Shown in pieces: positions 4,825 through 32,269 of a stretch of DNA of 33,304 nt (positions within the stretch are counted from its first letter, which is position 1; each line of letters opens with the position of its first letter). The notes beneath the pieces are model-generated. The model saw only the letters and a list, made by a program, of their open reading frames with translations, was not told the DNA's origin and made no database searches. This DNA is from Ruminococcus sp. GTDB taxonomy: Bacteria; Bacillota; Clostridia; Oscillospirales; Acutalibacteraceae. The stretch is from contig JAFUOM010000036.1 in the NCBI GenBank assembly GCA_017481885.1, forward strand, positions 1 to 33,304, given 5' to 3'. Position numbers and translations under genes: made by a program.

Positions 4825-5637
4825 TTAACTTTTGATAAGATGAACGTTTCCGATAAGCTCAAATCCAGCTTTCTTAAATGTTGACACAGCACTGCGGTTA
4901 CCATTGTTGGCGTATAGCATAAGCGTAGTGTCAGCTTTTTGGTGCATAACTGAACTTATGTTTGTCACAAGCGTGCCGTAGCCGTTGTTTCTTTGTGATT
5001 GTTTTGTTGCAACTGAACGAATTGACGAACAATTATCTGTGTCGTTGCTGATAACGCAAACTGAAATTATTTCGCTGTTTTTAAGCAGAAGATAGACGTT
5101 GAGTTTGGTGAATTTCTTTACCATACGTTCGGCCTTTTCTTCACTCCAATGGAATTCATCTTTGAGTTCCATATAAAAACCGAGAAGTTTGTCGAAGAAC
5201 TTCTTGTTGTATTTTAGCACGGTAATATCATCGTTTTGGAGTGTTGATTTTGGAGAGAATACATATGTTCCCAACGAGTATTCACTTTTCACCTGATAAT
5301 CAAGCTCGTTGCTTACAAGTGCGTACATATCAGAAAAAATCTGTGCAATCTGCGGTTTAGTGAAAAATTCAAGGCCTTGAACATTGAATTCTTTCACCAC
5401 TTTTGCGATGTTTGCAACGATGTCTACGTTGGTACTGGTTTCGTTATCAGTCCATATCCATACGCTTTTATTATCCTTTTTGCGACAGACGATAACGTGC
5501 TTTTCATCTGAGTAAAACTCAGTGGATTCGTCCTGTCTTGCGTTATCGATATAGTTGAAAACCAACCTGTCCTCAAGAAAGTCTGGCCTTTCAAAAATAT
5601 CATCATTTGCAGATATACGTGTAATCTCAGTGCTCAT
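4825..5637 (-). CDS. GNAT-family N-acetyltransferase, substrate unknown
   Basis: A 270-aa protein whose C-terminal half is a GNAT fold. The acetyl-CoA-binding motif A is QRNNGYG at residues 215-221 after a beta-strand IRSVAT, and motif B is at 242-262 (YANNGNRSAV...KKAGFELIG). The N-terminal half (about 1-135) looks like a second degenerate GNAT-like lobe, as in tandem GNAT proteins such as the FR47 type. AAGGAGG lies 7 bases before the ATG. It is the last gene of the minus-strand unit, 36 bases after the threonine synthase-like gene. The natural acceptor cannot be read from the sequence; by position it may act on an amine or amino acid handled by the two PLP enzymes. Confidence 0.8.
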   Translation of the reverse strand: MSTEITRISANDDIFERPDFLEDRLVFNYIDNARQDESTEFYSDEKHVIVCRKKDNKSVWIWTDNETSTNVDIVANIAKVVKEFNVQGLEFFTKPQIAQIFSDMYALVSNELDYQVKSEYSLGTYVFSPKSTLQNDDITVLKYNKKFFDKLLGFYMELKDEFHWSEEKAERMVKKFTKLNVYLLLKNSEIISVCVISNDTDNCSSIRSVATKQSQRNNGYGTLVTNISSVMHQKADTTLMLYANNGNRSAVSTFKKAGFELIGNVHLIKS

Positions 5638-5673: not shown

Positions 5674-6918
5674 TTATTCAACTGTGATACCGAGCTTTGC
5701 AAATTCGCTTTCAAACTCAGCCAAATCGTTTTTGGAATAAACAGGTGACGGACAGTTAGCTATTGCACTTTCAATGTCTTTCAAGCCGTTGCCTGTAACA
5801 ACAGAAACAACTGTTGCGTCACTTTCGATAAGACCTTCTGCACAGAGCTTTCTAAGACCTGCTGTAGCAGTAACGCCAGCTGGTTCACCAAACACACCGC
5901 ACTCTTTTGCCAAGAAACGCTGAGCATCTCTGATTTCGTCATCAGTAACATTAACTGTGATGCCGTTTGAGTCGATGATTGCGTTGATAGCTTTGTCAGG
6001 ATTGCGTGGTACACCAACAGCAATTGAGTCAGCGTAGGTGTTTTCTTCCTGTGGAGTCCAGTTGTTTGTCTTGTTAGCTGCCGCAACGTTAATTGGACAG
6101 CATCCGCTTGCCTGAACAGAAATCAGACGTGGGATTTTGTCGATAAGACCGACTTTGTACATATCGTAAAGACCCTTGTAAACGCCTGCGATTGTGCATC
6201 CGTCACCAACAGAGATTGCAACATAGTCAGGAGCGTTGAAGTCGAGCTGTTCGATAATCTCTAAAGAAACTGTCTTCTTGCCTTCGCTAAGATATGGGTT
6301 GATAGCGGCATTTCTGTTGTACCAGCCGTACTTGTCAATAGCAGATTTTGAAAGCTCAAAGGTTTCTTCGTATGTGCCCTTAACTGCTGTGAGGTTCGCG
6401 CCGAACATCATCAGCTGAGCGATTTTGCCCTTTGGTGCACGCTCAGGAACGAAGATGTATGTCTTAAGTCCTGCGGCAGCGGCGTTACCAGCGAGTGAGG
6501 AAGCGGCGTTGCCTGTTGAAGAACAAGCAATTGTTTCATATCCTGCTTCAATTGCCTTTGTGACAGCCATTGCGGATGCTCTGTCTTTTAATGAAGATGT
6601 TGGGTTAACGCCGTCATCCTTGATGTAGAGCTTTTTGATGCCGAGCATCTTTGCAACCTTATCAGATTCGTAGAGTGGTGAGTTGCCAACTCTTAAACCC
6701 TTTGGAGTTGTGTCTTCTTCAATCGGAAGAAGCTCACGGTATCTCCACATTGTTTCGTCCTCACGATTCTTGAGGACATCTTTGTTGAAGATTGTTTTAA
6801 TATAATCGTAGTCGTAAATTACGTCAAGTATTCCACCACACTCGCAAGTTGTTGCATCAGCAGTAGCTTCGTAAGTCTTGCCGCATTTTACGCACTGTAA
6901 GTATTTTACATTTTTCAT
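5674..6918 (-). CDS. Threonine synthase-like PLP enzyme with N-terminal zinc ribbon
   Basis: PLP-dependent fold-type II protein (414 aa). Residues 1-30 form a zinc ribbon (C9, C12, C25, C27). NPTSSLKDR at 105-113 supplies the PLP lysine (K111), SSTGN at 133-137 binds the cofactor phosphate, and GDGCTIAGV and GEPAGVTATAGL match threonine synthases. In that family the reaction is O-phosphohomoserine to threonine. Here it is 10 bases downstream of another fold-type II PLP gene and is followed by a GNAT gene, with no homoserine pathway genes nearby. Its ribosome binding site AAGGGTG overlaps the stop region of the upstream gene, suggesting translational coupling. Threonine synthase is the best family name, but a different beta-replacement or elimination role in the neighbouring ygeYW context is possible. 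Confidence 0.85.
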   Translation of the reverse strand: MKNVKYLQCVKCGKTYEATADATTCECGGILDVIYDYDYIKTIFNKDVLKNREDETMWRYRELLPIEEDTTPKGLRVGNSPLYESDKVAKMLGIKKLYIKDDGVNPTSSLKDRASAMAVTKAIEAGYETIACSSTGNAASSLAGNAAAAGLKTYIFVPERAPKGKIAQLMMFGANLTAVKGTYEETFELSKSAIDKYGWYNRNAAINPYLSEGKKTVSLEIIEQLDFNAPDYVAISVGDGCTIAGVYKGLYDMYKVGLIDKIPRLISVQASGCCPINVAAANKTNNWTPQEENTYADSIAVGVPRNPDKAINAIIDSNGITVNVTDDEIRDAQRFLAKECGVFGEPAGVTATAGLRKLCAEGLIESDATVVSVVTGNGLKDIESAIANCPSPVYSKNDLAEFESEFAKLGITVE

Positions 6919-6928
6919 AGTTTCACCC

Positions 6929-8404
6929 TTACAGAGTCTTTAAGAGACCAACCTCTTCGTTGAACTGGTCGATGAGTTCGTCGAGCTCTTCGCACTGCTT
7001 GTGAACCTTATCCCAAGTGTTTTCTGTATCGTACCATAAAGCGTCGAGCTCTTCAACAGTTCTGCCCTGCTGTTCAACCCATGTGTAGTACTTGAGGTTG
7101 TGAACACGCTTTCTGTCAGCATATGTAAGCTCAATGAGGTTGTCGGTTTTAAGACCGAGCATATGGAGCTTGTGGTCGATTTCAGCCTCTTTGAGGTTGT
7201 ATTCACCGTGCATCTCGTTGAGCTCAGTAATTCTTGACTGGTACATATCAGCACTGTCAGTGAGAACTGTAGCAACAACATCGTGCTCTGTGAATTCGTA
7301 GTATTTAGCCATCTTGATACAGCAAAGGATGTTAGCAATACCGGAAATACCAAGCCAAGAGAGCTTTTCGACAAACTCTTTGTCAAGACCGAGGTCGTTG
7401 ATGAGATATGCCTTACCGTCCTCTGTGTTGAAGAGTCTTAAGAGTCTCTGGCTGTCTTCGTCGTCAATTGCGATAGCCATATCTGTATTCTTAACGTTGT
7501 GGATGAATGGGATGTGTTTGTCGCCGATACCCTCAATTCTGTGACCGCCGAAGCCGTTGTTTAAGATAGTTGGACACTGGAGGGCTTCGCCAACGCCGAG
7601 TTTCATAGTTGGGTAGTAGTCTTTTAAGTAGTCACCACTGCTCATTGTACCTGCTGAACCTGATGTGAAGCAAGCACCAGCGAGCTTGTCACCAGGGCGT
7701 TTGATAGCCTCGAATACAGTAGCAAGACCGTGACCTGTAACGTTGTAGTGCCAAAGTGGGTTACCCATTTCTTCAAACTGATTGAAAATCATAACATCGT
7801 CACGCTGTTTGAGTTCCCATGTTTTGTCGAAGATTTCCTTAACGTTTGACTCACAACCAGGAGTTGCGATAATTTCACCGGCAACAGCTTTAAGCCAGTC
7901 AAAACGCTCCTTGCTCATTTCAGCAGGGAGGATTGCGATTGAATCGCAAGCGAGTAAGTTAGAGTTGAACGCACCGCCACGGCAGTAGTTACCTGTGGAT
8001 GGCCATACAGCCTTGTGTACAGTTGCGTCAAACTGACCTGTAACAAGACGTGGTGCTAAGCATCCAAAGGATGCACCAACCTTGTGGCAACCTGTTGGGA
8101 ACCATTTGCCAACCATAGCAAAGATTCTTGCCTTAACGCCTGTGAGCTCACTTGGAAGCTCAATGTAGTTAGGAACATCCTGAAACAGACCGCCTGTTTC
8201 TTTAGCTTCGTTTTTCCATGTGATTCTGAAAAGGTTAACAGGGTCTAAATCCCACAGACCTGTTTTGCTTAACTTTTCCTTGATTTACTCAGGAATAAGC
8301 TCAGGGTTCTGCATCTGCTTGATTGTTGGGATAATGATGTTATTTTCTCTTGCTTTTTCAATGTTGTGCTTAAGACCAAGCTCGTTGATTTTAAAATCAA
8401 TCAT
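6929..8404 (-). pseudogene. PLP-dependent fold-type II enzyme interrupted by an in-frame TAA at codon 40
   Basis: The frame from an ATG at 8404 (preceded by TGGAGG at 8 bases) runs 491 codons to 6929 with one stop, TAA at 8287-8285, in the context IPE-stop-IKEKLS. A single base change from GAA or AAA would explain it. After the stop the frame is clean. PTGCHKVGASFG supplies the likely PLP lysine (K108), PSTGN at 135-139 the phosphate loop, and TSGSAGTMSSG and NGFGGHRIEGIG are glycine-rich loops. The family resembles proteins named pyridoxal-5-phosphate-dependent protein subunit beta; I know no established reaction. The next in-frame ATG (8116) would give 395 aa that still contain K108 but lack 96 N-terminal residues and a good ribosome binding site. 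First gene of the minus-strand unit, divergent from ygeY. Confidence 0.75.
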
Positions 8405-8681
8405 TGTAAATACCTCCAGTCTGCATCGCTTTTACTATAGTGAAATCACGTAATTAAAGGTGGTTTTGCTATATCGGTGCAGTAAAAATTACGGGTCGTT
8501 TTTGACCATACATATATAGTAATACAACAGAAATCACATTTCAATATTTTTTTGTATCTAAAATTTGAATTTTTGTTTGACACAAATGCAACTTGCGGTA
8601 TAATGTTATTAAGTAGAGTTTACTTTTTGTATATGATTACTAAATGCGTATTTTAAGCTTTAAAGAGAGGAGCTTTTTGTT
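8405..8681. promoter_or_regulatory. Divergent intergenic region between the PLP gene and ygeY
   Basis: On the plus strand a clear sigma-A promoter serves ygeY (listed separately). Toward the minus-strand gene there is a TGGAGG ribosome binding site and a near-palindrome TTTTACTATAGTGAAA at 8430-8445, which could be an operator or part of a promoter. No convincing -35 box or purine-riboswitch core was found. Confidence 0.5.
8577..8604 (+). promoter_or_regulatory. Sigma-A promoter of ygeY-ygeW
   Basis: Consensus TTGACA, 16-base spacer, consensus TATAAT. The leader to the ygeY ATG is about 70 bases and ends with the ribosome binding site GAGAGGAG. Confidence 0.82.
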
Positions 8682-9875
8682 ATGAATTTTGAAGAGATTA
8701 AAAAGGCAGCCGAGGGTTACGAAAAGGATATGACAAAGTTTTTGCGTGACCTTGTAAAGATTCCGAGCGAAAGTGCTCAGGAAGAGGGCGTTGTAAAACG
8801 TATCAAGGAAGAAATGGAAAAACTCGGCTTTGATAAGGTTGAGATTGACCCAATGGGTAATATCTTAGGCTTTATGGGCGATGGCGATAAAATCATTGCT
8901 TATGACGGACATATCGATACTGTAGGTCTGGGCGAGATGTCTAACTGGAACTTTGACCCATACGAGGGTTACGAAACAGAAACAGAAATCGGCGGTCGTG
9001 GTACATCAGACCAGGAAGGCGGACTTGTTTCTGCTGTGTATGGCGCTAAGATTATGAAAGATTTAGGCCTTATCCCTGATGGTTACAAGATTTTAGTTAC
9101 AGGTACAGTTCAGGAAGAGGACTGCGACGGTCTTTGCTGGCAGTATATTCACAACGAGCTTGATATCACCCCTGAGTTTGTTGTTATCACAGAGCCAACT
9201 GATAAGGGTATCTACCGTGGTCAGCGTGGCAGAATGGAAATCAGAGTTGAGGTTAAGGGCGTATCTTGTCACGGTTCAGCTCCTGAGCGTGGCGACAATG
9301 CTATTTACAAAATGGCTGATATTATCACCGAAATACGCGATTTAAATGACAGACTTCACTACGACGAGTTTTTAGGTAAGGGTACTGTTACTGTATCTCA
9401 GTCTTTCTATAACTCTCCATCACGTTGTGCTGTTGCTGATATGGCGGCTGTGTCACTTGACAGACGTTTGACTGATGGTGAAACATGGGAGTCAGCACTT
9501 GAAGAAGTTAGAGCACTTCCGAGCGTTAAAAAGTACGGTGCTGAGGTTACTATGTATACCTACGAGCGTCCATCTTGGACAGGACTTGTTTATCCTACAG
9601 AATGTTACTTCCCGACTTGGGTTATTCCAGAAGACCACCCTGCAACTTTAGCAGTTGTTGAAGCACACAAGGGTATGTATGGAGAACCACGTGTTGATAA
9701 GTGGACATTCTCTACAAACGGTGTTTCAATTATGGGCAGATACGGTATTCCATGTATCGGTTTTGGTCCTGGTGCAGAAGCTCAGGCTCACGCTCCTAAC
9801 GAGAAGACTTGGAAAGAAGACCTTGTTCGCTGTGCCGCTGTTTATGCTGCTATTCCTATGAACTACAAAAAGTGA
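8682..9875 (+). CDS. ygeY: YgeY-family M20 metallohydrolase (selenium-metabolism/urate-cluster type)
   Basis: Dinuclear zinc M20 peptidase/deacylase fold, 397 aa, close to the usual length of E. coli YgeY. Metal-site residues are visible: H77 and D79 (DGHIDTVG), D110 ([10 protein letters not shown]), the catalytic EE at 145-146, E171 (ITEPT) and H370 ([11 protein letters not shown]). [14 protein letters not shown] at 196-209 is the dimerisation-lid region. YgeY is part of the ygeX-ygeY-ygeW gene set implicated in anaerobic urate catabolism, where it is thought to hydrolyse an amide or ureido intermediate; the exact substrate is not established here. ygeW follows after 10 bases, so the pair is an operon. 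Confidence 0.88.
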
Positions 9876-9885
9876 GGTTTTTGCT

Positions 9886-11079
9886 ATGAGTAAATTTGAA
9901 GAACTTATAAAGCATCTTGAAACTCTTGATGTTAAAGATATGTACGAGGGCGATTTCTTCCTTACTTGGGATAAATCTGATGACGAGCTTGAGGCTGTGT
10001 TTACTGTAGCTGATGCTCTTAGAGATATGCGTGAGCGTAATATTTCGACAAAGATTTTTGACAGCGGTCTTGCTGTTTCTAACTTCCGTGATAATTCTAC
10101 ACGTACACGTTTTTCGTTTGCATCAGCTTGCAACTTGCTCGGTCTTGAAGTTCAGGATTTAGACGAAGGTAAGAGCCAGATTGCTCACGGAGAAACTGTG
10201 CGAGAAACTGCAAATATGATTTCTTTTATGGCTGATGTTATCGGCATCCGTGACGATATGTATATCGGTAAAGGCCATACTTACCAAAAGGAAGTTGTCG
10301 AGTCTGTAACTGAGGGTTATAACGAGGGTATCCTGGAGCAGAAGCCTACTCTTGTTAACCTCCAGTGCGATATTGACCATCCAACTCAGGCAATGGCAGA
10401 TATGCTCCATATTATCCACCAGTTCGGCGGTGTTGAAAACTTAAAGGGCAAGAAGGTCGCTATGACTTGGGCGTACTCCCCATCATACGGCAAACCGCTT
10501 TCTGTTCCACAGGGTGTAGTTGGTCTGTTCACTCGTTTTGGTATGGATGTTGTACTTGCTCATCCTGAGGGTTACGACATTATGCCTGAGGTTGAAGAAG
10601 TAGCAAAGGCTAACGCTGAAAAATCTGGCGGTAGCTTTACAAAGTGCAACAGTATGGCAGAGGCGTTCAAGGACGCTGATATTGTTTATCCAAAGAGCTG
10701 GGCGTCTTTTGCCGCTATGGAAAAGCGTACTAACCTTTATGGTGAGGGCGATTTCGACGGCATCAAAGAGCTTGAAAAAGAGCTTCTCAAACAGAACGCT
10801 GAGCACAAGGATTGGGAATGTACTGAAGAGATGATGAAGTTGACAAAAGACGGCAAAGCACTCTATCTGCACTGCCTGCCGGCGGACATCACAGGCGTTT
10901 CCTGTAAAGCAGGCGAGGTTGAAGCATCTGTGTTCGACCGTTATCGTAATCCGCTTTACAAAGAGGCATCATTCAAACCATACATCATCGCTGCTATGAT
11001 TTTCCTTGCAAAGGTTAAAGACCCTGCAAAGGCTTTAGCAGAGCTTGAAGAAAAGGCTAAAGCACGCAAAGCATTTTAA
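9886..11079 (+). CDS. ygeW: Knotted carbamoyltransferase YgeW
   Basis: Aspartate/ornithine carbamoyltransferase superfamily, 397 aa. The carbamoyl-phosphate motif is STRTR at 71-75, HPTQ at 165-168 is the second phosphate/carbamoyl motif, and HCLP at 329-332 is the amino-substrate motif. The segment SPSYGKPLSVPQG at 198-210 is the proline-rich loop typical of the knotted subfamily. E. coli YgeW is described as lacking ordinary ATCase or OTCase activity. In urate degradation it is thought to work in the reverse direction, releasing carbamoyl phosphate from a ureido intermediate for ATP synthesis. No carbamate kinase is in the window. Convergent with guaD and separated from it by a hairpin terminator. 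Confidence 0.9.
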   Translation: MSKFEELIKHLETLDVKDMYEGDFFLTWDKSDDELEAVFTVADALRDMRERNISTKIFDSGLAVSNFRDNSTRTRFSFASACNLLGLEVQDLDEGKSQIAHGETVRETANMISFMADVIGIRDDMYIGKGHTYQKEVVESVTEGYNEGILEQKPTLVNLQCDIDHPTQAMADMLHIIHQFGGVENLKGKKVAMTWAYSPSYGKPLSVPQGVVGLFTRFGMDVVLAHPEGYDIMPEVEEVAKANAEKSGGSFTKCNSMAEAFKDADIVYPKSWASFAAMEKRTNLYGEGDFDGIKELEKELLKQNAEHKDWECTEEMMKLTKDGKALYLHCLPADITGVSCKAGEVEASVFDRYRNPLYKEASFKPYIIAAMIFLAKVKDPAKALAELEEKAKARKAF

Positions 11080-11105
11080 TTGAATAAGCAAAAAGAGCAA
11101 AAATT

Positions 11106-11137
11106 AAGGAGAGCTGATTGTTTCAGCCCTCCTTTTT
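11106..11137. terminator. Terminator between convergent ygeW and guaD
   Basis: AAGGAG-A-GCTGA pairs with TCAGC-C-CTCCTT (one A/C mismatch), followed by TTTTTG. The gap between the two stop codons is about 60 bases, so it probably serves both genes. Confidence 0.75.
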
Positions 11138-11140
11138 GTT

Positions 11141-12415
11141 TTATATTACCTTTTTACCTTTTACAAATTTTGCGGTTATACCTTTGAAATCTGCGTTTAA
11201 ATACACTGCACGCTGTAAGCGTTCGTGAACACCAAGTGCTTGCGGATGTGGAAGTACTGAGTCGTCGATTACAACTGCGTCAAATTCGTAGTCTTTTTCA
11301 AACGAGCCGACTTTGCCGAAAAACTCACCGCCACCGATTGTTGCAAGGTAGAACGCTTCGTTAAATGTGACAGGCTTAGCGTTTTCGTCAACAAGCCTGT
11401 AGTATAGCTTTGAAACCTGAACTGTATCTGCAATCGCTCTGAAAAGTGAAACTGAGTGGCCACCTGCCACATCAGTGCCTAAACCGATTTTTAAATCATT
11501 ATCCAGATATCTTCTTACGGGTGCGATACCTGAGCTAAGATTTATGTTTGATGCAGGACAGTGAGCAACAAATACGCCGTTTTGTTTCATCAGCTCAACT
11601 TCGTCATCGCTTGAGTATACACAGTGCGCCATAACAGTTTTTGCATCTGTTCCAAATAACCCAAAACTATCGTACGCATCACCGTAGTTTTTCGAGTCAG
11701 GACAAAGCTCTTGTACCCATTTAATCTCGTCTTTGTTTTCACTTAAGTGAGATTGCACAGGCAAATTGTATTCTTTCTGAATTTCTGACAGATTTTTCAT
11801 CAGTTCACCAGTACAGCTTGGTATAAACCTTGGGGTTAATATCGGCTTTGTGTTTTCGAATTTGTCCTTGGTTTCGTTAATCCAAAGTACAGTGTCTTCT
11901 ACTGATTTGTCACTGCTTTCTTCGCACAGATTATCAGGCGAGTTGCGGTCCATATTTACTTTGCCTACAAAGGTGCAAAGCCCTGTGTTTTCGAGCTGTT
12001 CCATCAATACTTTTGTTGCATCCTTATGAAGTGTTGCGAAAATGCATGCTCTGGTTGTAACTGAATTTTTTAGCACATCGGCAAAAATTGAGTAAGCTTT
12101 TTGAGCGTAACCTAAATCACTGTATTTTGCTTCTTCTAAAAAAGCACTGCTACTCAGCCACTCAATAAGCTCAGCGTCCATATTCAGTCCTGAAAAAGCA
12201 AACTGAGGTGCGTGAGTGTGCAAATCTGACATAGCAGGAAGGACGAGCTTGTCTGAATAGTCAAAAAGCTCGTAATCGCTGTACTCAATCGGAAGATTTT
12301 CAAAGACACCTTTGCTGATGCCGTTTTCACAAACAGCGTAGCCGTTTTCAATTGTATTTATCGTTGCTTTGTCTGTACTGTAACAGATGTCGCCTCTAAT
12401 TACGAAGTTGTTCAC
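11141..12415 (-). CDS. guaD: Guanine deaminase
   Basis: Zinc amidohydrolase converting guanine to xanthine and ammonia (424 aa). Metal ligands are visible: H66 and H68 (DLHTHAP), H223 (QSHLSEN), H264 (AHCVYS) and D315 (GTDVAGG). RFIPSCTGELM and HCPASNINLSSGIAPVRRYLD are characteristic of guanine deaminases as opposed to other cytosine/adenosine-type deaminases. The start is GTG, chosen because GAGGTGAT lies 7 bases upstream and no suitable ATG is near. The gene faces the ygeYW pair and is divergent from the BMP importer, fitting a purine uptake and degradation island. Confidence 0.9.
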   Translation of the reverse strand: MNNFVIRGDICYSTDKATINTIENGYAVCENGISKGVFENLPIEYSDYELFDYSDKLVLPAMSDLHTHAPQFAFSGLNMDAELIEWLSSSAFLEEAKYSDLGYAQKAYSIFADVLKNSVTTRACIFATLHKDATKVLMEQLENTGLCTFVGKVNMDRNSPDNLCEESSDKSVEDTVLWINETKDKFENTKPILTPRFIPSCTGELMKNLSEIQKEYNLPVQSHLSENKDEIKWVQELCPDSKNYGDAYDSFGLFGTDAKTVMAHCVYSSDDEVELMKQNGVFVAHCPASNINLSSGIAPVRRYLDNDLKIGLGTDVAGGHSVSLFRAIADTVQVSKLYYRLVDENAKPVTFNEAFYLATIGGGEFFGKVGSFEKDYEFDAVVIDDSVLPHPQALGVHERLQRAVYLNADFKGITAKFVKGKKVI

Positions 12416-12720
12416 GGTATCACCTCGTCATTATATTTTGCACTTTAATATTATAATAATGATTTACAGTTATATTTCTCAAAAACAAAAATAACGATAT
12501 CCCAACAAGTAATTTTTAGGGGAAAATTGTGCAAAGTCCAATATAAAACGCAATTAAAATCGGCTTTTGTAGACTTTTTTTATAAATTTTTCGTTTTTTT
12601 TTCTTCAAAAATATTGTCAATCATATAAAGAGAATGTATAATTGATGTGTTAGACCACTCTCTTTTGACTGGCTAATCAAAGATTTCCAAACGGAAATAT
12701 TTTTAAGGAGGAGATTTCCA
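12416..12720. other. AT-rich divergent control region of guaD and the BMP lipoprotein gene
   Basis: About 305 bases without a gene. It contains the BMP-gene promoter (12614-12642) and a roughly 70-base leader. In that leader TTAG-A-CCA can pair with TGG-CTAA, and ATTTCC can pair with GGAAAT just before a short T run and the ribosome binding site AAGGAGGAG. Two TATAAT-like boxes toward guaD are present, but no good -35 partner was found. I looked for a purine riboswitch core and did not find one. Confidence 0.5.
12614..12642 (+). promoter_or_regulatory. Sigma-A promoter of the BMP/ABC importer operon
   Basis: TTGTCA, 17-base spacer, TATAAT, about 80 bases before the lipoprotein start. Confidence 0.75.
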
Positions 12721-13968
12721 ATGAAAAAGTTAATTGCACTTATCCTTGCTATCCTTATGGTAGCTTCTCTTGCTGCTTGCGGTGGCACAGACACAGCTAC
12801 AAAGGACGAAGCTGGCAAAGCAGACGCATCTTCTGATTTCAAGATGGGCGTTATCCTTATCGGTGACGAAAACGAAGGTTATACATACGCTCACATCCAG
12901 GGCATCAAAGACGCTGCAAAATCTTTAGGTCTTGCTGACGACCAGATTATCTGGAAGTACACAATCCCTGAGGATGAAACTTGCTACGATACAGCTGCTG
13001 ACCTTGCTGACCAGGGTTGCGACCTCGTAGTTTCTAACTCTTACGGCCACCAGTCACATATGCAGCAGGCTGCTACTGAGTTCCCAGAGGTTACTTTCAT
13101 CGCTATGACAGGTGACACAGCTAAGGCTTCAGGTCTTCCTAACTTCTGCAACGCTTTCACAGCTGTTTATGAGTCAAGATTCGTATCAGGTGTTGTTGCT
13201 GGTATGAAGATTAAAGAGCTCGTTGACGCTGGCAAGCTCGAGGACGACAACTTTGATGCTGACGGCAACGTTAAGGTTGGTTACGTAGGTGCTTACCCAT
13301 ACGCTGAGGTTAAGTCTGGCTACACAGCTTTCTTCCTCGGTATCAAGTCAGTTTATGACAAGGTTTCAATGAGCGTTCAGTTCACAAACTCTTGGTTCGA
13401 CCTCACAAAAGAGGGCGAGACAGCTAACCAGCTCCTTTCACAGGGTTGCGTTATCATCTGCCAGCACGCTGACTCAACAGGTGCTCCATCTGCTGTTCAG
13501 GCTGCTTTAGAGAAGGGCGACGTTTGCTACTCAGTTGGTTACAACATCGATATGCTCGAGGTTGCTCCACAGGCTGCTCTTACATCAGCTACAAACGTTT
13601 GGTCTGTATACTACACAGAGGCTATCGGCGCTGCAATGAAGGGCGAAGCTGTTCCTACAAACTGGGCAGAAGGCTACGCTAAGGACGCTGTTGCTATCAC
13701 ACCACTCGGTGAGTCTTGCGCAGAAGGCACACAGGAAAAGGTTGACGAGGTTATCGCTGCTATCAAGGCAGGCGAGCTCCACGTTTTCGATACAGAGACA
13801 TTCACAGTAGGCGGCAAGAAGGTTGAGTCTGCATTTGCTACAGATACAGACGGCGACTTCGTTCCAGATGCTGATGAGGCTGTATTCGATGGTTACTTCC
13901 ACGAGTCATACTTCCAGTCAGCTCCATGTTTTGCTCTCGATATCGATGGCATCACACTTCTTAACTAA
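12721..13968 (+). CDS. BMP-family substrate-binding lipoprotein of a nucleoside/purine ABC importer
   Basis: Extracytoplasmic lipoprotein, 415 aa. A lipoprotein signal peptide ends in the lipobox LAAC with Cys20 as the lipidation site. The mature part has the periplasmic-binding fold of the Bmp/Med family (PnrA, BmpA, NupN), whose characterised members bind purine nucleosides; examples are GVILIGDENEGYTYAHIQG and the GYVGAYPYAEV and SQGCVIICQHADS stretches. A C-terminal acidic segment DTDGDFVPDADEAVFDGY is an addition compared with the classical members. It has a strong AAGGAGGAG ribosome binding site and its own promoter, and the ATPase and two permeases follow. The precise ligand (nucleoside, guanine, xanthine or urate) is not readable from the sequence. 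Confidence 0.92.
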   Translation: MKKLIALILAILMVASLAACGGTDTATKDEAGKADASSDFKMGVILIGDENEGYTYAHIQGIKDAAKSLGLADDQIIWKYTIPEDETCYDTAADLADQGCDLVVSNSYGHQSHMQQAATEFPEVTFIAMTGDTAKASGLPNFCNAFTAVYESRFVSGVVAGMKIKELVDAGKLEDDNFDADGNVKVGYVGAYPYAEVKSGYTAFFLGIKSVYDKVSMSVQFTNSWFDLTKEGETANQLLSQGCVIICQHADSTGAPSAVQAALEKGDVCYSVGYNIDMLEVAPQAALTSATNVWSVYYTEAIGAAMKGEAVPTNWAEGYAKDAVAITPLGESCAEGTQEKVDEVIAAIKAGELHVFDTETFTVGGKKVESAFATDTDGDFVPDADEAVFDGYFHESYFQSAPCFALDIDGITLLN

Positions 13969-13993
13969 TTAATTGACTTAGTATAAGTTCATA

Positions 13994-14019
13994 AGGGAAG
14001 CCGAGAAATCGGCTTCCCT
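13994..14019 (+). other. GNRA-capped stem-loop between lipoprotein and ATPase genes
   Basis: An 11-bp perfect stem AGGGAAGCCGA / TCGGCTTCCCT is closed by a GAAA tetraloop. No good T run follows (AAACTTG), so this is more likely an mRNA 3'-end stabiliser or partial terminator than a full terminator. Such hairpins commonly let the binding protein be expressed above the other transporter genes. Confidence 0.65.
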
Positions 14020-14044
14020 AAACTTGTTTAATATACACCTTAGC

Positions 14045-14098
14045 TTTAGGTAAAACACAATCGCCTGATAAGTTTCGGACTGTTGTGTTTTATCTAAA
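14045..14098 (+). ncRNA. Candidate structured 5' leader of the importer ATPase gene
   Basis: A 16-bp AU-rich stem (14045-14060 with 14083-14098, one G-U pair) encloses a 22-base loop that contains CCTGATAAGTTTCGGAC. It ends 11 bases before the ribosome binding site of the ATPase gene. The loop is too short for a purine riboswitch (no three-way junction). It could be a protein- or ligand-binding RNA element, or simply a stable hairpin. Confidence 0.35.
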
Positions 14099-14122
14099 TC
14101 AATAAAAAGAGGAGGATGTGTA

Positions 14123-15682
14123 GTGGATAACAACATTGCTGTTAAGCTACAAAATATTACCAAAACCTTTGGTAAGCAGGTTGTTGCCAACAAGGATGTT
14201 ACGCTCGACATCAGAAAAGGCGAGATCCTGTCACTTCTTGGCGAGAACGGTTCCGGAAAAACAACACTGATGAATATGCTTGCGGGTATTTACTTCCCTG
14301 ATTCAGGCCATATTTTTGTTGATACTGACGGTGAGGGTTTAAAGGAAGTTTCTATCTGCTCGCCTAAGGATGCATATGAGCTTGGTATTGGTATGATTCA
14401 CCAGCATTTTAAGCTTGTTGATGTTTTTACAGCTACCGAAAACGTAGCTCTTGGTCTTGATAAGAGCATTGCGTTTAACAAAAAGCAGATTGCTTTAGAT
14501 ATCAAAGCTATCTGTGATAAATACGGATTTAAGGTGGACCCTGACAAAAAGGTCTACAATATGAGCGTTTCTGAAAAGCAGACTTTAGAGATTGTAAAGG
14601 CTCTGTACAGGGGTGCAAATATCCTGATTCTTGATGAGCCTACTGCGGTACTCACTCCTCAGGAAACAGATATGCTTTTCGATGTAATGCGTAATATGAG
14701 AGAAGATGGAAAGTCTATCATTATCATTACTCATAAGTTAAACGAAGTGCTTGAGATTTCTGACAGAGTTTCAACTCTTCGAAAGGGTGAGTACGTCGGC
14801 ACTGTTGATACTGCTGACGCTACAGTAAGTTCACTTACCGAAATGATGGTAGGTCAGAAAGTCACCCTCCACATCGACAGAAAAGAGCCTGAAAATACAA
14901 AGGAACGCTTGGTGGTAAAGAACCTGACCTGCGTTAACAAATACGGAGTTAAGGCACTTGATGATGTCAGCTTTACTGCTTACGGTGGCGAGATACTCGG
15001 TATTGCGGGTATTTCGGGCAGTGGTCAGAAAGAACTTCTTGAAGCTATTGCGGGCTTGCAGGAAACTGTTGGAGAAAGCTCAGTTAAGTATGTTGACCCT
15101 AAAACCGAAACACCATCTCAGCTTATCGGCAAAACAGCCCTACAGATTAAGAATATGGGCGTTGCACTCTCGTTTGTTCCTGAGGATAGACTTGGTATGG
15201 GCCTTGTTGGTACAATGGGTATGTCAGACAATATGATGCTCCGTTCTTACAGAAAGGGTTTTGTTTTCACAGAGCGTAAGGGACCAAAGAACCTTGCAAA
15301 TAAAGTAAAAGAAGAGCTTGAGGTTGTTACACCAAGTATCCAGACTCCTGTTCGAAAGCTTTCAGGCGGTAACGTTCAGAAGGTTCTGGTTGGCCGTGAA
15401 ATTGCTGCTGAGCCTACAGTGCTTATGACCGCATACGCTGTTCGTGGTCTAGATGTAAACACTTCTTATACAATCTACGGACTTTTGAATGAGCAGAAAG
15501 AAAAAGGTGTTGCTGTTATCTATGTCGGCGAGGACCTCGACGTATTGCTCGCACTTTCTGACCGTATCTTAGTTTTGTGTGACGGTAAATTAAACGGCAT
15601 CGTTGATGCACGAACTACTACTAAGGAAGAAATCGGTCTGCTTATGACACATTTGAGAGAGGAGGAGCAGAAAAATGGCTAA
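14123..15682 (+). CDS. ABC transporter ATP-binding protein, tandem-domain (NupO type)
   Basis: Two fused ABC domains in 519 aa, typical for BMP/nucleoside and sugar importers. Domain 1 has Walker A GENGSGKTT at 40-48, a degenerate signature MSVSEKQ near 147-153, and Walker B ILILDEPTA at about 167-175. Domain 2 has a degenerate Walker A GISGSGQKE, signature LSGGN near residue 415, and a Walker B lacking the catalytic glutamate (TAYAVRGLDV); this asymmetry is normal for the family. The GTG start at 14123 is supported by GAGGAGG upstream. It overlaps the following permease gene by 8 bases, indicating coupled translation. It probably energises uptake of purine nucleosides or bases captured by the BMP lipoprotein. 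Confidence 0.93.
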   Translation: MDNNIAVKLQNITKTFGKQVVANKDVTLDIRKGEILSLLGENGSGKTTLMNMLAGIYFPDSGHIFVDTDGEGLKEVSICSPKDAYELGIGMIHQHFKLVDVFTATENVALGLDKSIAFNKKQIALDIKAICDKYGFKVDPDKKVYNMSVSEKQTLEIVKALYRGANILILDEPTAVLTPQETDMLFDVMRNMREDGKSIIIITHKLNEVLEISDRVSTLRKGEYVGTVDTADATVSSLTEMMVGQKVTLHIDRKEPENTKERLVVKNLTCVNKYGVKALDDVSFTAYGGEILGIAGISGSGQKELLEAIAGLQETVGESSVKYVDPKTETPSQLIGKTALQIKNMGVALSFVPEDRLGMGLVGTMGMSDNMMLRSYRKGFVFTERKGPKNLANKVKEELEVVTPSIQTPVRKLSGGNVQKVLVGREIAAEPTVLMTAYAVRGLDVNTSYTIYGLLNEQKEKGVAVIYVGEDLDVLLALSDRILVLCDGKLNGIVDARTTTKEEIGLLMTHLREEEQKNG

Positions 15683-16805
15683 GGTTGCAACTCACAAAAG
15701 AGAACCGCTTGTTCGTATTGCAAAGCGTGACTCAATGCCTTTATGGCAGTCAGTACTCATCAGGGTGCTTTCTATTGTGCTTGCCCTTGTGGTTTGCGGT
15801 GTTATCATCTATATGCTTATTAAGGTTAATCCTCTTGAGGTTTATAAATCAATGGTTGAGGGTGCTTTCGGTGCTTTTAGAGAGGACTATAAATTCTTCA
15901 ACCGCAGAACATGGATTACTATTCGTGATACAATGATGCTCCTTTGCATCGCTGTCGGACTTGCTCCTGCGTTCAAGATGCGTTTCTGGAACATCGGTGC
16001 GGAGGGTCAGATTTTAGTTGGCGGTATTGCTACAGCCGCTTGTATGATTTATCTGAAAACTCTTCCTCCTGTTTTACTTTTCGTTTGTATGATAGTTGCA
16101 AGCTTACTTGCAGGTGCGTTGTGGTCACTTCTGCCAGCTATATTCAAAGCTAAGTGGAACACCAACGAAACATTGTTCACACTTATGATGAACTACGTAG
16201 CTATTCAGCTAACATCGTTCTTTGTTGCTTTGTGGGAGAACCCATTCGGTTCAAACACTGTCGGTATTATTAACCCGCAGGGCAAAGAAGGTTGGTTTCC
16301 ACCTGTATTCGGTCTTGATTATATGATGAACGTAATCGTTGTTATGATTATCACAATTGGTATGTTCATCTACCTTAAATATTCAAAGCAGGGCTACGAA
16401 ATTTCTGTTGTCGGTGACTCTGAGAATACTGCACGTTACGCAGGTATTAACGTTAAAAAGGTAATCATCCGCACAATGCTCATTTCTGGTGCTATCTGCG
16501 GTTTGTCAGGCTTCGTTGCTGTGTCAGGTGCTTCGCACACTATTTCTGTTAACACAGCAGGTGGTAAAGGCTTTACTGCTATCATTGTTGCTTGGCTTGC
16601 AAAATTCAACACATTTACAATGATTCTGATTTCTCTGCTTCTTGTTTTCCTTGACAAGGGTGCTATTGAAATCGCTTCAAAATACGACCTGAACGACTAC
16701 GTTGCAAGTATGATTACAGGTATCATCCTGTTCTTCATCCTGGGTAGCGAGTTCTTTGTAAACTATCGTATGATTTTCAGAAGCAAGGAAAAGGGGGTAC
16801 AGTAA
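15675..16805 (+). CDS. ABC transporter permease (NupP type)
   Basis: Polytopic inner-membrane permease of the BPD_transp_2 family, 376 aa, with a cytoplasmic N-terminus (about 1-25) and about eight to ten hydrophobic segments. GAEGQILVGGIA (about 110-121) and NTNETLFTLMMNYVA are conserved family stretches. The segment GDSENTARYAGINVKKVI near residue 245 is the cytoplasmic loop that docks the ATPase. It overlaps the ATPase gene by 8 bases and is followed after 1 base by the second permease, so all are one transcript. Confidence 0.93.
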   Translation: MAKVATHKREPLVRIAKRDSMPLWQSVLIRVLSIVLALVVCGVIIYMLIKVNPLEVYKSMVEGAFGAFREDYKFFNRRTWITIRDTMMLLCIAVGLAPAFKMRFWNIGAEGQILVGGIATAACMIYLKTLPPVLLFVCMIVASLLAGALWSLLPAIFKAKWNTNETLFTLMMNYVAIQLTSFFVALWENPFGSNTVGIINPQGKEGWFPPVFGLDYMMNVIVVMIITIGMFIYLKYSKQGYEISVVGDSENTARYAGINVKKVIIRTMLISGAICGLSGFVAVSGASHTISVNTAGGKGFTAIIVAWLAKFNTFTMILISLLLVFLDKGAIEIASKYDLNDYVASMITGIILFFILGSEFFVNYRMIFRSKEKGVQ

Positions 16806-16806
16806 T

Positions 16807-17799
16807 ATGGGTAATATGAATACATTATTGCAGTTGTTACAGTCCTCGATTGCTTTTGGTACAATCATTATGTTTGGTGCTGTCGGTGAGATTATCACCG
16901 AAAAAGCAGGTAACTTAAACCTCGGTATCCCAGGTGTTATGTATTTGGGTGCTATTTCATCTTTAGTTGGCGTTTTCTTCTATGAGAAAAACGTTGCCGA
17001 CCCTAACCCATTTGTGTGTGCCGTTATCGCTATCCTTTGTGCGTTTTTAGCGGCGGCTTTGGGCGGTTTGCTGTTCAGCTTTTTGACTATCACTTTAAGA
17101 GCTAACCAGAACGTTACGGGTCTTACACTCACCATTTTTGGTTCGGGTGTTGCAAACTTTTTCGGCGGTCTCTTAAATGGTTTTTCAGGCGGTGTTGGTC
17201 AGATTCGTGTTGAAACAACAAGCAAAGTGTTTATGGCAAAAATTCCGTTTTTGTCTGACTTAGGCGTTGTAGGAAAGCTATTATTCTCTTACGGCTGGCT
17301 TGTTTACGTTGCTATTATCATTGCGATTCTTTCACAGTGGTTTTTGAACAAAACACGTTCAGGTCTTAACCTTCGAGCTGTTGGTGAAAACCCTGCTACT
17401 GCTGATGCGGCAGGTATCAATGTAACACTTTATCGTTATCTTGCAACTTGCATCGGTACAGGTATTGCAGGTCTTGGCGGTCTTTACTACGTTATGGACT
17501 ACACAAAGGGTACTTGGGCAAACGATGGTACTATGGAAAACCTTGGTTGGCTTGCTGTTGCTCTTGTTATATTTGCAATCTGGCGTCCTAAGAACGCTAT
17601 CTGGGGTGCTTACCTGTTCGGTCTTCTTTTCTGGGCTTACCTGTACATCCCTGGTCTTACAAGAAAGAGTCTTGAGCTTTTCAATATGCTACCATACGTT
17701 GTTACAATCATCGTGCTTGTTTTCACATCTTTCAGAAAGAAGAGAGAAAATCAGCCACCAAACGCTTTGGGTCTTGCATATTTTAGAGAAGAGAGATAA
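16807..17799 (+). CDS. ABC transporter permease (NupQ type)
   Basis: Second membrane subunit of the importer, 330 aa, BPD_transp_2 family. It has the conserved start GAVGEIITEKAGNLNLGIPGVM typical of this permease class, the segment RANQNVTGLTLTIFGSG, and the cytoplasmic coupling loop AVGENPATADAAGINV near residue 195-210. It starts one base after the upstream permease stop and ends shortly before a terminator, so it is probably the last gene of the transport operon. Confidence 0.93.
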   Translation: MGNMNTLLQLLQSSIAFGTIIMFGAVGEIITEKAGNLNLGIPGVMYLGAISSLVGVFFYEKNVADPNPFVCAVIAILCAFLAAALGGLLFSFLTITLRANQNVTGLTLTIFGSGVANFFGGLLNGFSGGVGQIRVETTSKVFMAKIPFLSDLGVVGKLLFSYGWLVYVAIIIAILSQWFLNKTRSGLNLRAVGENPATADAAGINVTLYRYLATCIGTGIAGLGGLYYVMDYTKGTWANDGTMENLGWLAVALVIFAIWRPKNAIWGAYLFGLLFWAYLYIPGLTRKSLELFNMLPYVVTIIVLVFTSFRKKRENQPPNALGLAYFREER

Positions 17800-17827
17800 A
17801 TATTGGACAAATAAATCTTTACTTTAT

Positions 17828-17858
17828 AAAATCCCTTGCTTTTTGCAGGGGATTTTTT
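17828..17858 (+). terminator. Rho-independent terminator after the importer operon
   Basis: AAATCCCTTGC pairs with GCAGGGGATTT (one G-U pair) around TTTTT and is followed by a T run. The next start codon is only about 36 bases later, so the deaminase gene is served by read-through or by a promoter overlapping the terminator (possible TTGCAG, 18-base spacer, TACTAT). Confidence 0.8.
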
Positions 17859-17894
17859 TATACTTGTACTATATTTTATTGACAGGTGATTATT

Positions 17895-19256
17895 ATGGCA
17901 TTACTGCTTAGAAATGTTAATTTTGCAGTGTCGTGTGATAAAACCGACACATTATATGAGGGTGTTGACATATTTATAGTTGACGGCAAAATAGAGGCTA
18001 TCGGTATTGACCTTGATGTGGGTGCTGAACAGGTTATCAATTGTACCGATATGATTTGTTATCCGGGACTTATTAACACCCATCATCACTTGTATCAGTT
18101 CTTCTCACGCAATATACCTAGTGTGCAGAATATGGAGCTTTTCCCTTGGCTCAAAGCTCTTTATGGTGTGTGGCAAAACCTTGATAACGATGTTGTGTAT
18201 CTTAGCTCGAAATGCGGCATGGCAGAGCTGATGAAAAACGGCTGCACAACCTGCTTTGACCATCACTACGTTTTTCCACAGGGTAGCTCGCTATCACTTT
18301 TGGATAGCCAGCTTGAAGCTGCAAAGGAGCTTAATATAAGGATGTATATGTCACGTGGTAGTATGAACCTGTCGCAAAAAGACGGCGGTTTGCCTCCTGA
18401 TGGCGTTGTACAGACAACAGACGAGATTTTAAAAGACAGCATAAAAGCAATTGAAAAGTACCACGATGCTTCATTTGGTTCTATGAATATGCTCGCACTT
18501 GCTCCGTGTTCACCATTTTCGGCAAGCTCAGATTTGTACAGCGAGAGCGCAAAGCTTGCTCGTCAGTACGGTGTTCGACTTCATACACATCTGTGCGAAA
18601 CTATTGATGAAGAAAACTACACGCTTGAAAAGTTCAATATGCGACCACTTGAGTATATGCAGTCACTTGATTTTATCGGGGACGACGTGTGGTATGCTCA
18701 CGGAATACATTTCTACGATGCAGAGGTGTCAATTCTTGCTCAGACAGGCACAGGTGTAGCTCATTGCCCTGTATCTAATATGAAACTCAGTTCAGGTGTT
18801 GCAAAGATTCCGCAAATGCTTAGAAAAGGTGTCAAGGTAGGTTTGGCTGTTGATGGCAGTGCGTCAAACGATGGTTCAAATATGCTTGAAGAAATCAGAG
18901 CGGCGTACCTTTTGTCACGTCTTACATATGGTAGCGAGGGACTCACACCATATCAGGTGCTTAAAATAGCAACCGCAGGTTCGGCACAGGTTCTTGGCAG
19001 AGATGACATAGGTACGATTGAAGTCGGCAAATGTGCGGACTTATTCCTTGTTAATAAACGCAGAGTTGAGCTTGTCGGTGCAACATTCGACCCTAAATCA
19101 ATGCTTGCTACAGTCGGACTCAAAGGTGCAGTGGATTATACAATCGTCAACGGTGAAGTAACAGTCGAAAACGGCAGATGCGTTAACATTGACGAAGAAA
19201 AGCTGTATTGCACAGCACAGCAGAAAGTTCAGGATTATCTGAGCGACTTATTGTAA
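17895..19256 (+). CDS. 8-oxoguanine deaminase (AtzB/TrzN-like amidohydrolase)
   Basis: Zinc amidohydrolase, 453 aa. Ligand positions are H63 and H65 (NTHHHLYQ), H232 (LHTHLCET), H269 (AHGIHF) and D320 (VDGSASNDG). The stretches FPWLKALYGVW, NGCTTCFDHHYVFP, RGSMNLSQKDGGLPP and ALAPCSPFS match 8-oxoguanine deaminases such as the Pseudomonas PA0142 enzyme, which turns 8-oxoguanine into urate. The ATG at 17895 is chosen over the GTG at 17886, because CAGGTG is correctly spaced for the ATG and overlaps the GTG. Its position directly behind a purine-type importer, with guaD nearby, supports a purine substrate. An isoguanine- or hydroxyatrazine-like substrate is the main alternative. Confidence 0.85.
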   Translation: MALLLRNVNFAVSCDKTDTLYEGVDIFIVDGKIEAIGIDLDVGAEQVINCTDMICYPGLINTHHHLYQFFSRNIPSVQNMELFPWLKALYGVWQNLDNDVVYLSSKCGMAELMKNGCTTCFDHHYVFPQGSSLSLLDSQLEAAKELNIRMYMSRGSMNLSQKDGGLPPDGVVQTTDEILKDSIKAIEKYHDASFGSMNMLALAPCSPFSASSDLYSESAKLARQYGVRLHTHLCETIDEENYTLEKFNMRPLEYMQSLDFIGDDVWYAHGIHFYDAEVSILAQTGTGVAHCPVSNMKLSSGVAKIPQMLRKGVKVGLAVDGSASNDGSNMLEEIRAAYLLSRLTYGSEGLTPYQVLKIATAGSAQVLGRDDIGTIEVGKCADLFLVNKRRVELVGATFDPKSMLATVGLKGAVDYTIVNGEVTVENGRCVNIDEEKLYCTAQQKVQDYLSDLL

Positions 19257-26249: not shown

Positions 26250-27275
26250 ATGAAAAAGATTATCAGTATTTTGTTGGTTGTTGTTCTCGTTTTTGCGTGT
26301 GCATCAATCACAGTTTGTGCGGAGTATGAATATAAACTTGAAAGTAATTTGCTAAGTGTTCTGGAAACAATAGAAGATGATTTTAAGCTTCAAGTATTTA
26401 TTTGGATAAATGACACCGTAGATGAAGAGTTGGTTATCCAGAAAACATTTGAACAATGCGGATTGACGCAGGGTACAGCTAAAACTAAAGAAGAGGTAGA
26501 CCTATATCAAAGGACCTATCGTAATATAAAAGCTCAGCTATACGAAGAGTATAACAATATAGTTTTTGAGAAGATGAATGTAGTTGACGAAGATGTTATC
26601 TTTTTCAGTCAGTTGACGCCGTCCTTTATTATTAAAGCTACAAAATCAAAAGTATATGAGTTGGCACAGCTTGACGAGGTTGTTTCCATAGGTCTACACA
26701 AAATGCCTCTTTTTCCACAGCCTGAGCATCTTTATGAAAAGAGATTTTTGGAGCTTTATGAGGATATGATTTTTTCTGAAACTCACGATTATGATGAGTT
26801 GTATTATCATCACGATGAAAACGGTGAGGTTGACTGGGCGTTGATTGAACAGTGTTCGTATAATGCTCCACCGTGGGAATACCACAGAGTCTTTAAGGGT
26901 CGAGTGTTTATGTATGGTGACCATCGTCCGTTTTCCTTCCGATATGGTATATATGATGTGAAAGAAGACAAGTTCTACGATATTATAGATGATCAATTTG
27001 ATTATTCTAAATACGACGACCTTGAAGAAGTGTTCAATACTTTTAACTTTGGTTATCTGATAGGAGACTCTGACAGTGATGGAGTATTATCAGTGATGGA
27101 TGCTACCCTTATTCAGATGTCATTAGCGGGTCTTACTGACCTTGATGATGTACTTATAGATTATGACGGATATTTCAATGGATTCCCGAAATATATATCA
27201 GACTTTGACTGTGATGGTATGCGTACTATTATGGACGCCACAGGTATCCAGATGAAATTAGCAGAGATATATTAA
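26250..27275 (+). CDS. Secreted dockerin-like protein 1
   Basis: 341 aa with a Sec signal peptide (about 1-24, cleavage after VCA). Residues about 30-150 form a domain shared with the two following genes; the end of it (LTPSFIIKATKSKVYEL then DEVVSIGLHK) resembles protease propeptide/inhibitor I9-like folds, which is a tentative reading. The C-terminus has two calcium-binding dockerin repeats: GDSDSDGVLSVMDATLIQ at 272-289 and SDFDCDGMRTIMDATGIQ at about 317-334. The roughly 20-residue linker between repeats is longer than in classical dockerins. Dockerins anchor secreted proteins to cohesins of cellulosome-like complexes; no cohesin is in the window. First of three tandem paralogs. Confidence 0.8.
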   Translation: MKKIISILLVVVLVFACASITVCAEYEYKLESNLLSVLETIEDDFKLQVFIWINDTVDEELVIQKTFEQCGLTQGTAKTKEEVDLYQRTYRNIKAQLYEEYNNIVFEKMNVVDEDVIFFSQLTPSFIIKATKSKVYELAQLDEVVSIGLHKMPLFPQPEHLYEKRFLELYEDMIFSETHDYDELYYHHDENGEVDWALIEQCSYNAPPWEYHRVFKGRVFMYGDHRPFSFRYGIYDVKEDKFYDIIDDQFDYSKYDDLEEVFNTFNFGYLIGDSDSDGVLSVMDATLIQMSLAGLTDLDDVLIDYDGYFNGFPKYISDFDCDGMRTIMDATGIQMKLAEIY

Positions 27276-27278
27276 CTT

Positions 27279-27360
27279 AAACCAAAACACGTTTTCACGC
27301 GTTTTATTAATGAAGGGTATTTTACTCTAAGTGTAATTTTAACCACAGGAGGCGAAAATT
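27279..27360 (+). repeat. Conserved 82-base leader, copy B
   Basis: Second copy of the leader at 26168-26249 (3 differences in 82). It occupies essentially the whole gap between the first and second dockerin-like genes. The third gene keeps only the last part (ACACAGGAGGCGGAAATT) and the first codons. Confidence 0.9.
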
Positions 27361-28386: not shown

Positions 28387-28438
28387 GCTTAGATTTACGT
28401 TACATTTGATTTAATATTAAACACAGGAGGCGGAAATT

Positions 28439-32252: not shown

Positions 32253-32269
32253 TGAGGTTAGTGACTATT

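Follow-up and report, generated by a model that had tools for sequence, protein, structure and literature searches.

The closest described counterpart of the genes reported here is the reductive uric acid pathway of Escherichia coli, which comprises XdhD-YgfM, YgfK, SsnA, HyuA, YgeW, YgeY and YgeX (PMC12507026). It leads from uric acid via yanthine, dihydro-yanthine, ureidomethylhydantoin, diureidopropionate, a mono-ureido acid (albizziin or its isomer) and diaminopropionate to pyruvate (PMC12507026, PMC12990295). HyuA, YgeW and YgeY convert ureidomethylhydantoin to 2,3-diaminopropionate (PMC12507026), and YgeX performs the last step to pyruvate, reportedly with equal activity on L- and D-diaminopropionate (PMC12507026, PMC12990295). 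Exchanges of YgfK and YgeW have been described, with YgeX scored by PF00291 in a sequence similarity network (SSN), and the uricolytic cluster of C. difficile (UacX, UacY) is a precedent for the exchange of single enzymes in the urate pathway: there YgfK and YgeW are exchanged, while YgeX is kept (PMC12507026). Here we describe a 33,304-nucleotide stretch of DNA from Ruminococcus sp. (contig JAFUOM010000036.1, positions 1 to 33,304; hereafter the window), in whose genome it would be YgeX that is exchanged. In this window ygeY and ygeW are accompanied by genes for two fold-type II pyridoxal 5'-phosphate (PLP) enzymes, PLP1 and PLP2. We consider it rather probable, judging from sequence comparisons, that this island belongs, as its downstream half, to a reductive (anaerobic) system for urate degradation, and that PLP1 and PLP2 catalyze, or take part in, the final diaminopropionate step, which is elsewhere that of YgeX.

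The anaerobic degradation of urate in gut bacteria is under study with a view to gout and hyperuricemia, and YgeX is named as its last enzyme. In the accessible text of PMC12507026 the term 'threonine synthase', the family that PLP1 resembles, is not mentioned, and a literature search over titles and abstract openings, mostly of non-subscription sources, returned no description of a PLP1-PLP2 pair in the urate pathway.

Urate genes in the window, its genome and its congeners

Contig C18, the window, comes from a metagenome-assembled genome (MAG) of 1.94 Mb with 109 contigs and a completeness of 88%. Its purine island is flanked by glnS on one side and a MarR regulator on the other. PLP1 (5674..6918, 414 aa) and PLP2 (6929..8404, about 491 codons) are encoded on the minus strand, divergent from the plus-strand genes ygeY (8682..9875) and ygeW (9886..11079), with purine deaminases and a BMP/Nup importer alongside. 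YgeY, the M20 ureido-group hydrolase of the urate pathway, scores 676 bits with TIGR03526 (cut-off 321.5), and the knotted carbamoyltransferase YgeW 793 bits with TIGR03316 (cut-off 500). This is the layout given by an earlier, sequence-only reading of the window, and every gene named there was found again by open reading frame (ORF) and profile search. Its statement that the window holds no ygeX, ygfK, hyuA, xdhD or carbamate kinase gene (arcC) likewise agrees with our inspection by eye of the window ORFs of at least 100 aa, 11 of 39 ORFs being covered by family searches.

The island does not stand alone, a possibility that we rejected because ssnA, ygfK-like and hydantoinase-like genes are present in the same genome. 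SsnA is split across the contig ends of C5 and C31 (275 and 243 bits, each half under the cut-off of 455.5), and the gene is in one piece in the congener loci L030-L032. On C31, ssnA is followed by a gene for a 983-aa YgfK-like protein and then by one for a 458-aa hydantoinase-like protein, both assigned by similarity: homologues of the YgfK-like protein stand at the corresponding position in clusters with ygeX (55% in L058 and L061, for example), and homologues of the putative HyuA occur in other clusters. Molybdenum hydroxylases matching PF20256, which are candidates for the XdhD/XdhA-type enzyme, lie on C46 (743-aa frame) and C82 (856-aa frame). Since the two halves of the urate gene set are found on separate contigs and have other genes for neighbours, the window's genome appears to be either rearranged or mis-binned. 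In the congeners G025, G016 and G014 the genes form one contiguous run, ssnA-ygfK-hyuA-PLP1-PLP2/ygeY-ygeW-guaD-bmp-nup, with a GNAT acetyltransferase gene between hyuA and PLP1 in G025 and G014 that has no counterpart there in G016, and in G014 a carbamate kinase gene adjoins ygeW.

No protein of the window's genome exceeds the cut-off of the YgeX family TIGR03528 (532 bits), the best score being 52.7 bits. Within the genus the ygeX search covered the PLP2-bearing genomes, and ygeX was found in none of the seven PLP2-bearing congeners, four of which are at least 95% complete. The window's genome resembles E. coli in having SsnA, a YgfK-like and a hydantoinase-like protein, YgeW and YgeY, along with the candidate molybdenum hydroxylases and with purine deaminases and an importer nearby, but differs from it in that YgeX was not found and PLP1 and PLP2 lie in the cluster instead. 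Neither a ygeX cluster elsewhere in the genome nor a loss of the linkage between the PLP pair and ygeYW in related genomes, the two outcomes that would have spoken against a variant pathway, was observed; the linkage is conserved.

The two PLP proteins

PLP1 has an N-terminal CxxC...C motif and is similar over nearly its whole length to threonine synthases of the PRK08197 type (PDB 2ZSJ, 1UIM, 2D1F), with which it shares the S-x-K-D-R and STGN motifs. Threonine synthases are its nearest solved structures by sequence, its predicted structure has a predicted local distance difference test (pLDDT) score of 91, and it scores 232.6 bits with PF00291 and, over the PLP1 region, 21 bits with TIGR03528. 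As PLP1 passes the cut-offs of NF006050/PRK08197 (310.9 versus 303 bits) and TIGR00260 (216.8 versus 167.1 bits), its automatic naming as threonine synthase is likely, and it is probably mislabelled in this way by annotation. Unlike threonine synthases, PLP1 stands in a urate gene context, and its phosphate site is altered. Four solved short threonine synthases (ThrC) have the segment NSxNPxR, whose Ser and Arg we take to be the ligands of the substrate phosphate; the window's PLP1 reads NAAINPYL at this place. Among rows aligned to a ThrC with intact NSxNPxR, the Arg is replaced in 70/70 PLP1 rows and the Ser in 69/70 (L092 is the exception), the Arg being also gone in 9/11 other threonine-synthase-like rows and retained in only two. 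A quick tree separates the 70 PLP1 rows from these 11 with an SH-aLRT value of 98, for groups that had been selected by score of the hidden Markov model (HMM) and with long branches flagged. PLP1 is not the sole threonine synthase candidate of the cell, an idea that was rejected on account of a match to the N-terminal domain of E. coli-type ThrC on C57.

The reading frame of PLP2 opens at 8404 but is interrupted at codon 40 by an in-frame TAA (8287-8285), which leaves the 395-aa downstream ORF (6929-8116) as its open part. The sequence-only reading had correctly recognized both PLP genes but had missed this stop. The stretch with the stop codon is open in 17 homologues; four of these, distant ones at 32-40% identity, have a different N-terminal part. 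While the conserved N-terminal part is gone from the window's 395-aa ORF, the lysine, asparagine-loop and phosphate-loop motifs are kept, and the stop may be a real mutation or an assembly error. Invariant in 46 homologues are the HKVG lysine K107, PSTGN at 134-138 and a GSxG loop at 248-251, the predicted Schiff-base lysine, asparagine loop and phosphate loop of a fold-type II PLP enzyme. The model of the PLP2 homologue from G025 (pLDDT 92.4) has cystathionine beta-synthase (CBS) and cysteine synthase (CysK) as nearest folds, the top 50 structural hits being 19-25% identical to it. PLP2 shares the fold-type II core of these enzymes, but it is longer (about 490 aa) and remains far under their family cut-offs, both for the window ORF (TIGR01139, 74.1 versus 350.95 bits; TIGR01137, 64.8 versus 510 bits) and for the intact homologue L040 (93.9 and 86.7 bits). 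OrtB, the thiolase subunit of the ornithine pathway, is not among the families listed as PLP2 matches, no OrtB sequence having been compared.

A motif comparison of the sequences distinguishes the pair from YgeX: TDGNHG is present in 23/23 YgeX proteins and STGNA in 57/57 PLP1 proteins, and PLP2 has STGN followed by Tyr or Phe. The Asp of the YgeX motif is therefore a Thr in both PLP1 and PLP2. A search of the literature on active-site residues of YgeX yielded nothing useful.

Distribution of the pair

Searching 84,980 species genomes with an alignment of PLP2 returned at least 582 confirmed relatives, of which the best 80, from 79 genomes, were studied; L077 and L141 of this set belong to the genomes G187 and G014. 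These 80 come from Bacillota, Synergistota, Chloroflexota, Myxococcota, other Deltaproteobacteria, a Treponema, Bipolaricaulota, Asgard archaea and more. PLP1 lies at most 10 kb from PLP2 in 47/80 loci. When copies of 470 bits or more elsewhere in the genome are included, a line by which G502 (392 bits, in an xdh/carbamoyltransferase/kinase cluster) counts as lacking PLP1, 61/79 genomes have it. We then counted loci with at least one of six marker genes (SsnA, YgfK, HyuA, YgeY, carbamoyltransferase, YgeX). Such genes were found in 37/47 PLP1-PLP2 loci and in 15/15 of a further set; the ten loci without a marker include that of the Treponema, and some are short contigs. Loci around PLP1, 16 in all, were also retrieved from genomes whose PLP2 locus is without PLP1; one of them, L183, turned out to be PLP2-linked. 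Where PLP1 is unlinked to PLP2, marker genes were found in 14/15 loci, the exception being a 3.2-kb contig, as against 2/12 control loci around other threonine-synthase-like homologues of mixed kind. PLP1 and PLP2 are on the same strand in 62/62 linked loci, in either order, and linked pairs together with urate genes recur in Bacillota, Synergistota, Chloroflexota and Myxococcota.

Further arrangements were seen around PLP2. In a Synergistaceae genome a serine hydroxymethyltransferase gene (L086, 8719-9978) lies between PLP1 and PLP2, and in a deltaproteobacterial locus (L104:4621-8742) genes for a DHO_dh/Fe-S protein (PydA/UacX-like), an M20 hydrolase and PLP2 stand in a row. Five Bipolaricaulota loci (L091:6827-9867, L099:8572-11616, L102:5210-8248, L100 and L142) and one Anaerolineales locus (L123:3241-6199) combine PLP2 with two carbamoyltransferase-like genes and one carbamate-kinase-like gene, without YgeY in the locus. 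Possibly both ureido groups are removed phosphorolytically there to give the same diaminopropionate, which would be an all-phosphorolytic version of the two ureido-cleavage steps and would suit a role of PLP1 and PLP2 in the last step. In L097, L137 and L148 a gene for a YheO-like PAS plus HTH_22 regulator (L097:5355-6014; Pfam search on L097) lies between YgeY and PLP2, and homologues of the L097 regulator occur in 17 other loci, e.g. L137, L148 and L150. YheO-like PAS/HTH_22 regulators are linked to the use of D-amino acids. Stand-alone PLP2 genes gave no functional clue: in L089, the rumen-type Clostridia locus that was annotated, the neighbours are RodA, phosphoglucose isomerase, a GNAT protein and an AP-endonuclease-like protein, six further loci have a comparable gene content, and the neighbours in G187 (ProS) and G097 (McsB, rubrerythrin) are uninformative.

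Relation to ygeX

The same 391 genomes of the class were searched for PLP2, YgeY and YgeX (ygeX threshold E 1e-60). PLP2 was found in 11 and ygeX in 41 of them, and YgeY exceeded its own cut-off in 29 and 600 bits in 23. At the 600-bit line, which was placed at a gap after the scores had been seen, 14 of the 23 genomes have ygeX and the remaining nine (G000, G138, G151, G165, G187, G222, G322, G332, G383) have PLP2 without ygeX (Fisher p 1.2e-6), a split that represents only three families versus five (p 0.018 by family). One of the 14 ygeX genomes, G097, has in addition a PLP2-like gene outside its cluster, a distant one with 32% identity; G401, with PLP1 and PLP2, no ygeX and a YgeY fragment at a contig end, was left out of the nine. 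At the family cut-off of YgeY the 29 genomes comprise 17 with ygeX, nine with PLP2 and three with neither. The six genomes between this cut-off and 600 bits are G120, G210 and G218 with ygeX, and G124, whose YgeY is a fragment at a contig start, G275 and G295 with neither. No PLP1 or PLP2 gene occurs in any of the 16 loci that were retrieved around YgeY from G187 and the 14 ygeX genomes, and in G187 these two genes lie on two contigs other than that of YgeY.

Among the 79 genomes of the wider survey, ygeX is present in 19, namely in 14/61 with PLP1 and 5/18 without, one of the latter five calls being weak (342 bits). A cultured bearer of the pair in which ygeX was not found is Oscillibacter ruminantium. 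That pair and ygeX exclude each other everywhere was consequently rejected. In L101 and L150, from genomes without PLP1 at 470 bits, ygeX adjoins PLP2, an arrangement that points to PLP1 and not PLP2 as the counterpart of YgeX. The Miniphocaeibacter genome of L101 (4006-9971) carries ygeX twice, once within the urate cluster and once adjoining PLP2.

Proposed role and alternatives

In the role we favour for the pair, HyuA, YgeW and YgeY would yield 2,3-diaminopropionate from ureidomethylhydantoin as in E. coli. PLP1, with its threonine-synthase fold devoid of the phosphohomoserine phosphate site, would then act in place of YgeX as a beta-eliminating lyase, forming pyruvate and ammonia, and PLP2, as an enzyme of the cysteine-synthase/CBS type, might serve the other stereoisomer or an adjoining step. 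Since the Asp of the YgeX motif is a Thr in both proteins, we regard a split by enantiomer, or a racemase plus a lyase, as the most likely division of labour between them.

Several observations weigh against this proposal. The family count, the late choice of the 600-bit line and the genomes with neither gene at the YgeY cut-off limit the split seen in the class. The pair is not a strict replacement for ygeX in the wider survey, where ygeX shares the neighbourhood in 5/47 PLP1-PLP2 loci, as in loci of Desulfosporosinus, Paradesulfitobacterium and Diplocloster, and where PLP1 and ygeX do not avoid each other significantly (14/69 versus 6/14, p 0.09, with five Asgard genomes left out and eight genomes of the window's genus and G097 added). 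As many as 24/33 PLP2-only loci lack all six marker genes, PLP2 is patchy in the window's genus (present in 8/36 genomes searched, absent from 28/36), and in the window's MAG it is broken by a stop codon. On the side of PLP1, the threonine synthase cut-offs are passed, loss of the ThrC Arg is not special to this group, and the tree has the weaknesses given above. The variant urate pathway of the sequence-only reading stands in so far as ssnA, ygfK-like and hydantoinase-like genes are present, ygeX is not found and the linkage of the PLP genes with ygeYW is conserved; a clean replacement of YgeX does not hold everywhere, and an action of the pair on the diamino or ureido amino acid, as proposed there, is putative.

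The alternative that survives best, though we hold it to be distinctly less probable than the role in the terminal step, is that the two enzymes are indeed part of urate degradation yet catalyze another step than YgeX, for instance one that leads from diaminopropionate or aminoacrylate to serine, cysteine or glycine, or one with a ureido amino acid as substrate. The co-existence of ygeX and the pair in the three loci just named, the serine hydroxymethyltransferase gene in the Synergistaceae locus, and the fact that CBS and CysK, the nearest folds of PLP2, are beta-replacement enzymes are in agreement with it, whereas the class genomes with YgeY above 600 bits have the pair exactly where ygeX is missing, and PLP2 stands beside ygeX in L101 and L150, whose genomes have no PLP1 at 470 bits, as though either PLP1 or YgeX could partner it. 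A two-step relay appears unlikely; in this arrangement one enzyme would add a nucleophile (e.g. sulfide or water) to the aminoacrylate derived from diaminopropionate and the other would eliminate or release it, so that the carbon of urate would end up in, or pass via, cysteine, serine or glycine and not go straight to pyruvate. We attach very little probability to a ygeX gene in the unassembled part of the window's genome, with the PLP pair being additional: the MAG is 88% complete and some other genomes hold both types, but none of the seven PLP2-bearing congeners has ygeX, including the four most complete ones. Least probable is that PLP1 is a genuine threonine synthase in a coincidental neighbourhood, as its profile scores and nearest solved structures would have it, given the replaced phosphate-site Arg in all PLP1 rows, the other ThrC candidate of the genome and the linkage to urate genes in several phyla.

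If PLP1 and PLP2 do take the place of YgeX, genome surveys with ygeX as marker overlook degraders of the pair type, and surveys scoring YgeX by PF00291, as in the SSN of PMC12507026, would score PLP1 as YgeX. Probable functions would follow for two enzyme families of wide occurrence, including one that is scored as threonine synthase, and the unsettled order and stereochemistry of the last urate steps would gain testable candidates.

Other features of the window

The 277-bp intergenic region between PLP2 and ygeY (8405..8681) contains a promoter-like site, TTGAC(A/T)-16-TATAAT, directed towards ygeY, which is kept in three congeners according to an alignment with the spacing counted by eye. 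Downstream of PLP1 on the minus strand lies the gene for the GNAT acetyltransferase (4825..5637; PF00583/PF08445). Beyond ygeW follow a guanine deaminase-like amidohydrolase gene on the minus strand (11141..12415; TIGR02967 340 bits, under the cut-off of 375.4) and, on the plus strand, those for a BMP-family substrate-binding lipoprotein of a purine/nucleoside-type importer (12721..13968; PF02608 102.5 bits), the importer ATPase of the Nup type (14123..15682) and permease 1 (15675..16805), both found by profile search, and permease 2 (16807..17799), an ORF that is kept in the congener clusters L030-L032. This BMP/Nup ABC importer sets the island apart from E. coli, which has UacT and XanQ. The island ends with the plus-strand gene for an 8-oxoguanine deaminase (17886..19256; PRK08203 550.4 bits, cut-off 532), an enzyme whose product is urate; similar genes occur in other urate-type loci, e.g. 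L081, L082 and L109.

The window yielded neither an Rfam match nor, with ARAGORN, a tRNA. Outside the island, three tandem paralogues of secreted proteins with dockerin-like C-terminal repeats were seen by eye at 26250-29986, and a short ORF at 32252-32572, which may be a broken gene, looks by eye like the beginning of a papain-like secreted protease with an early end.

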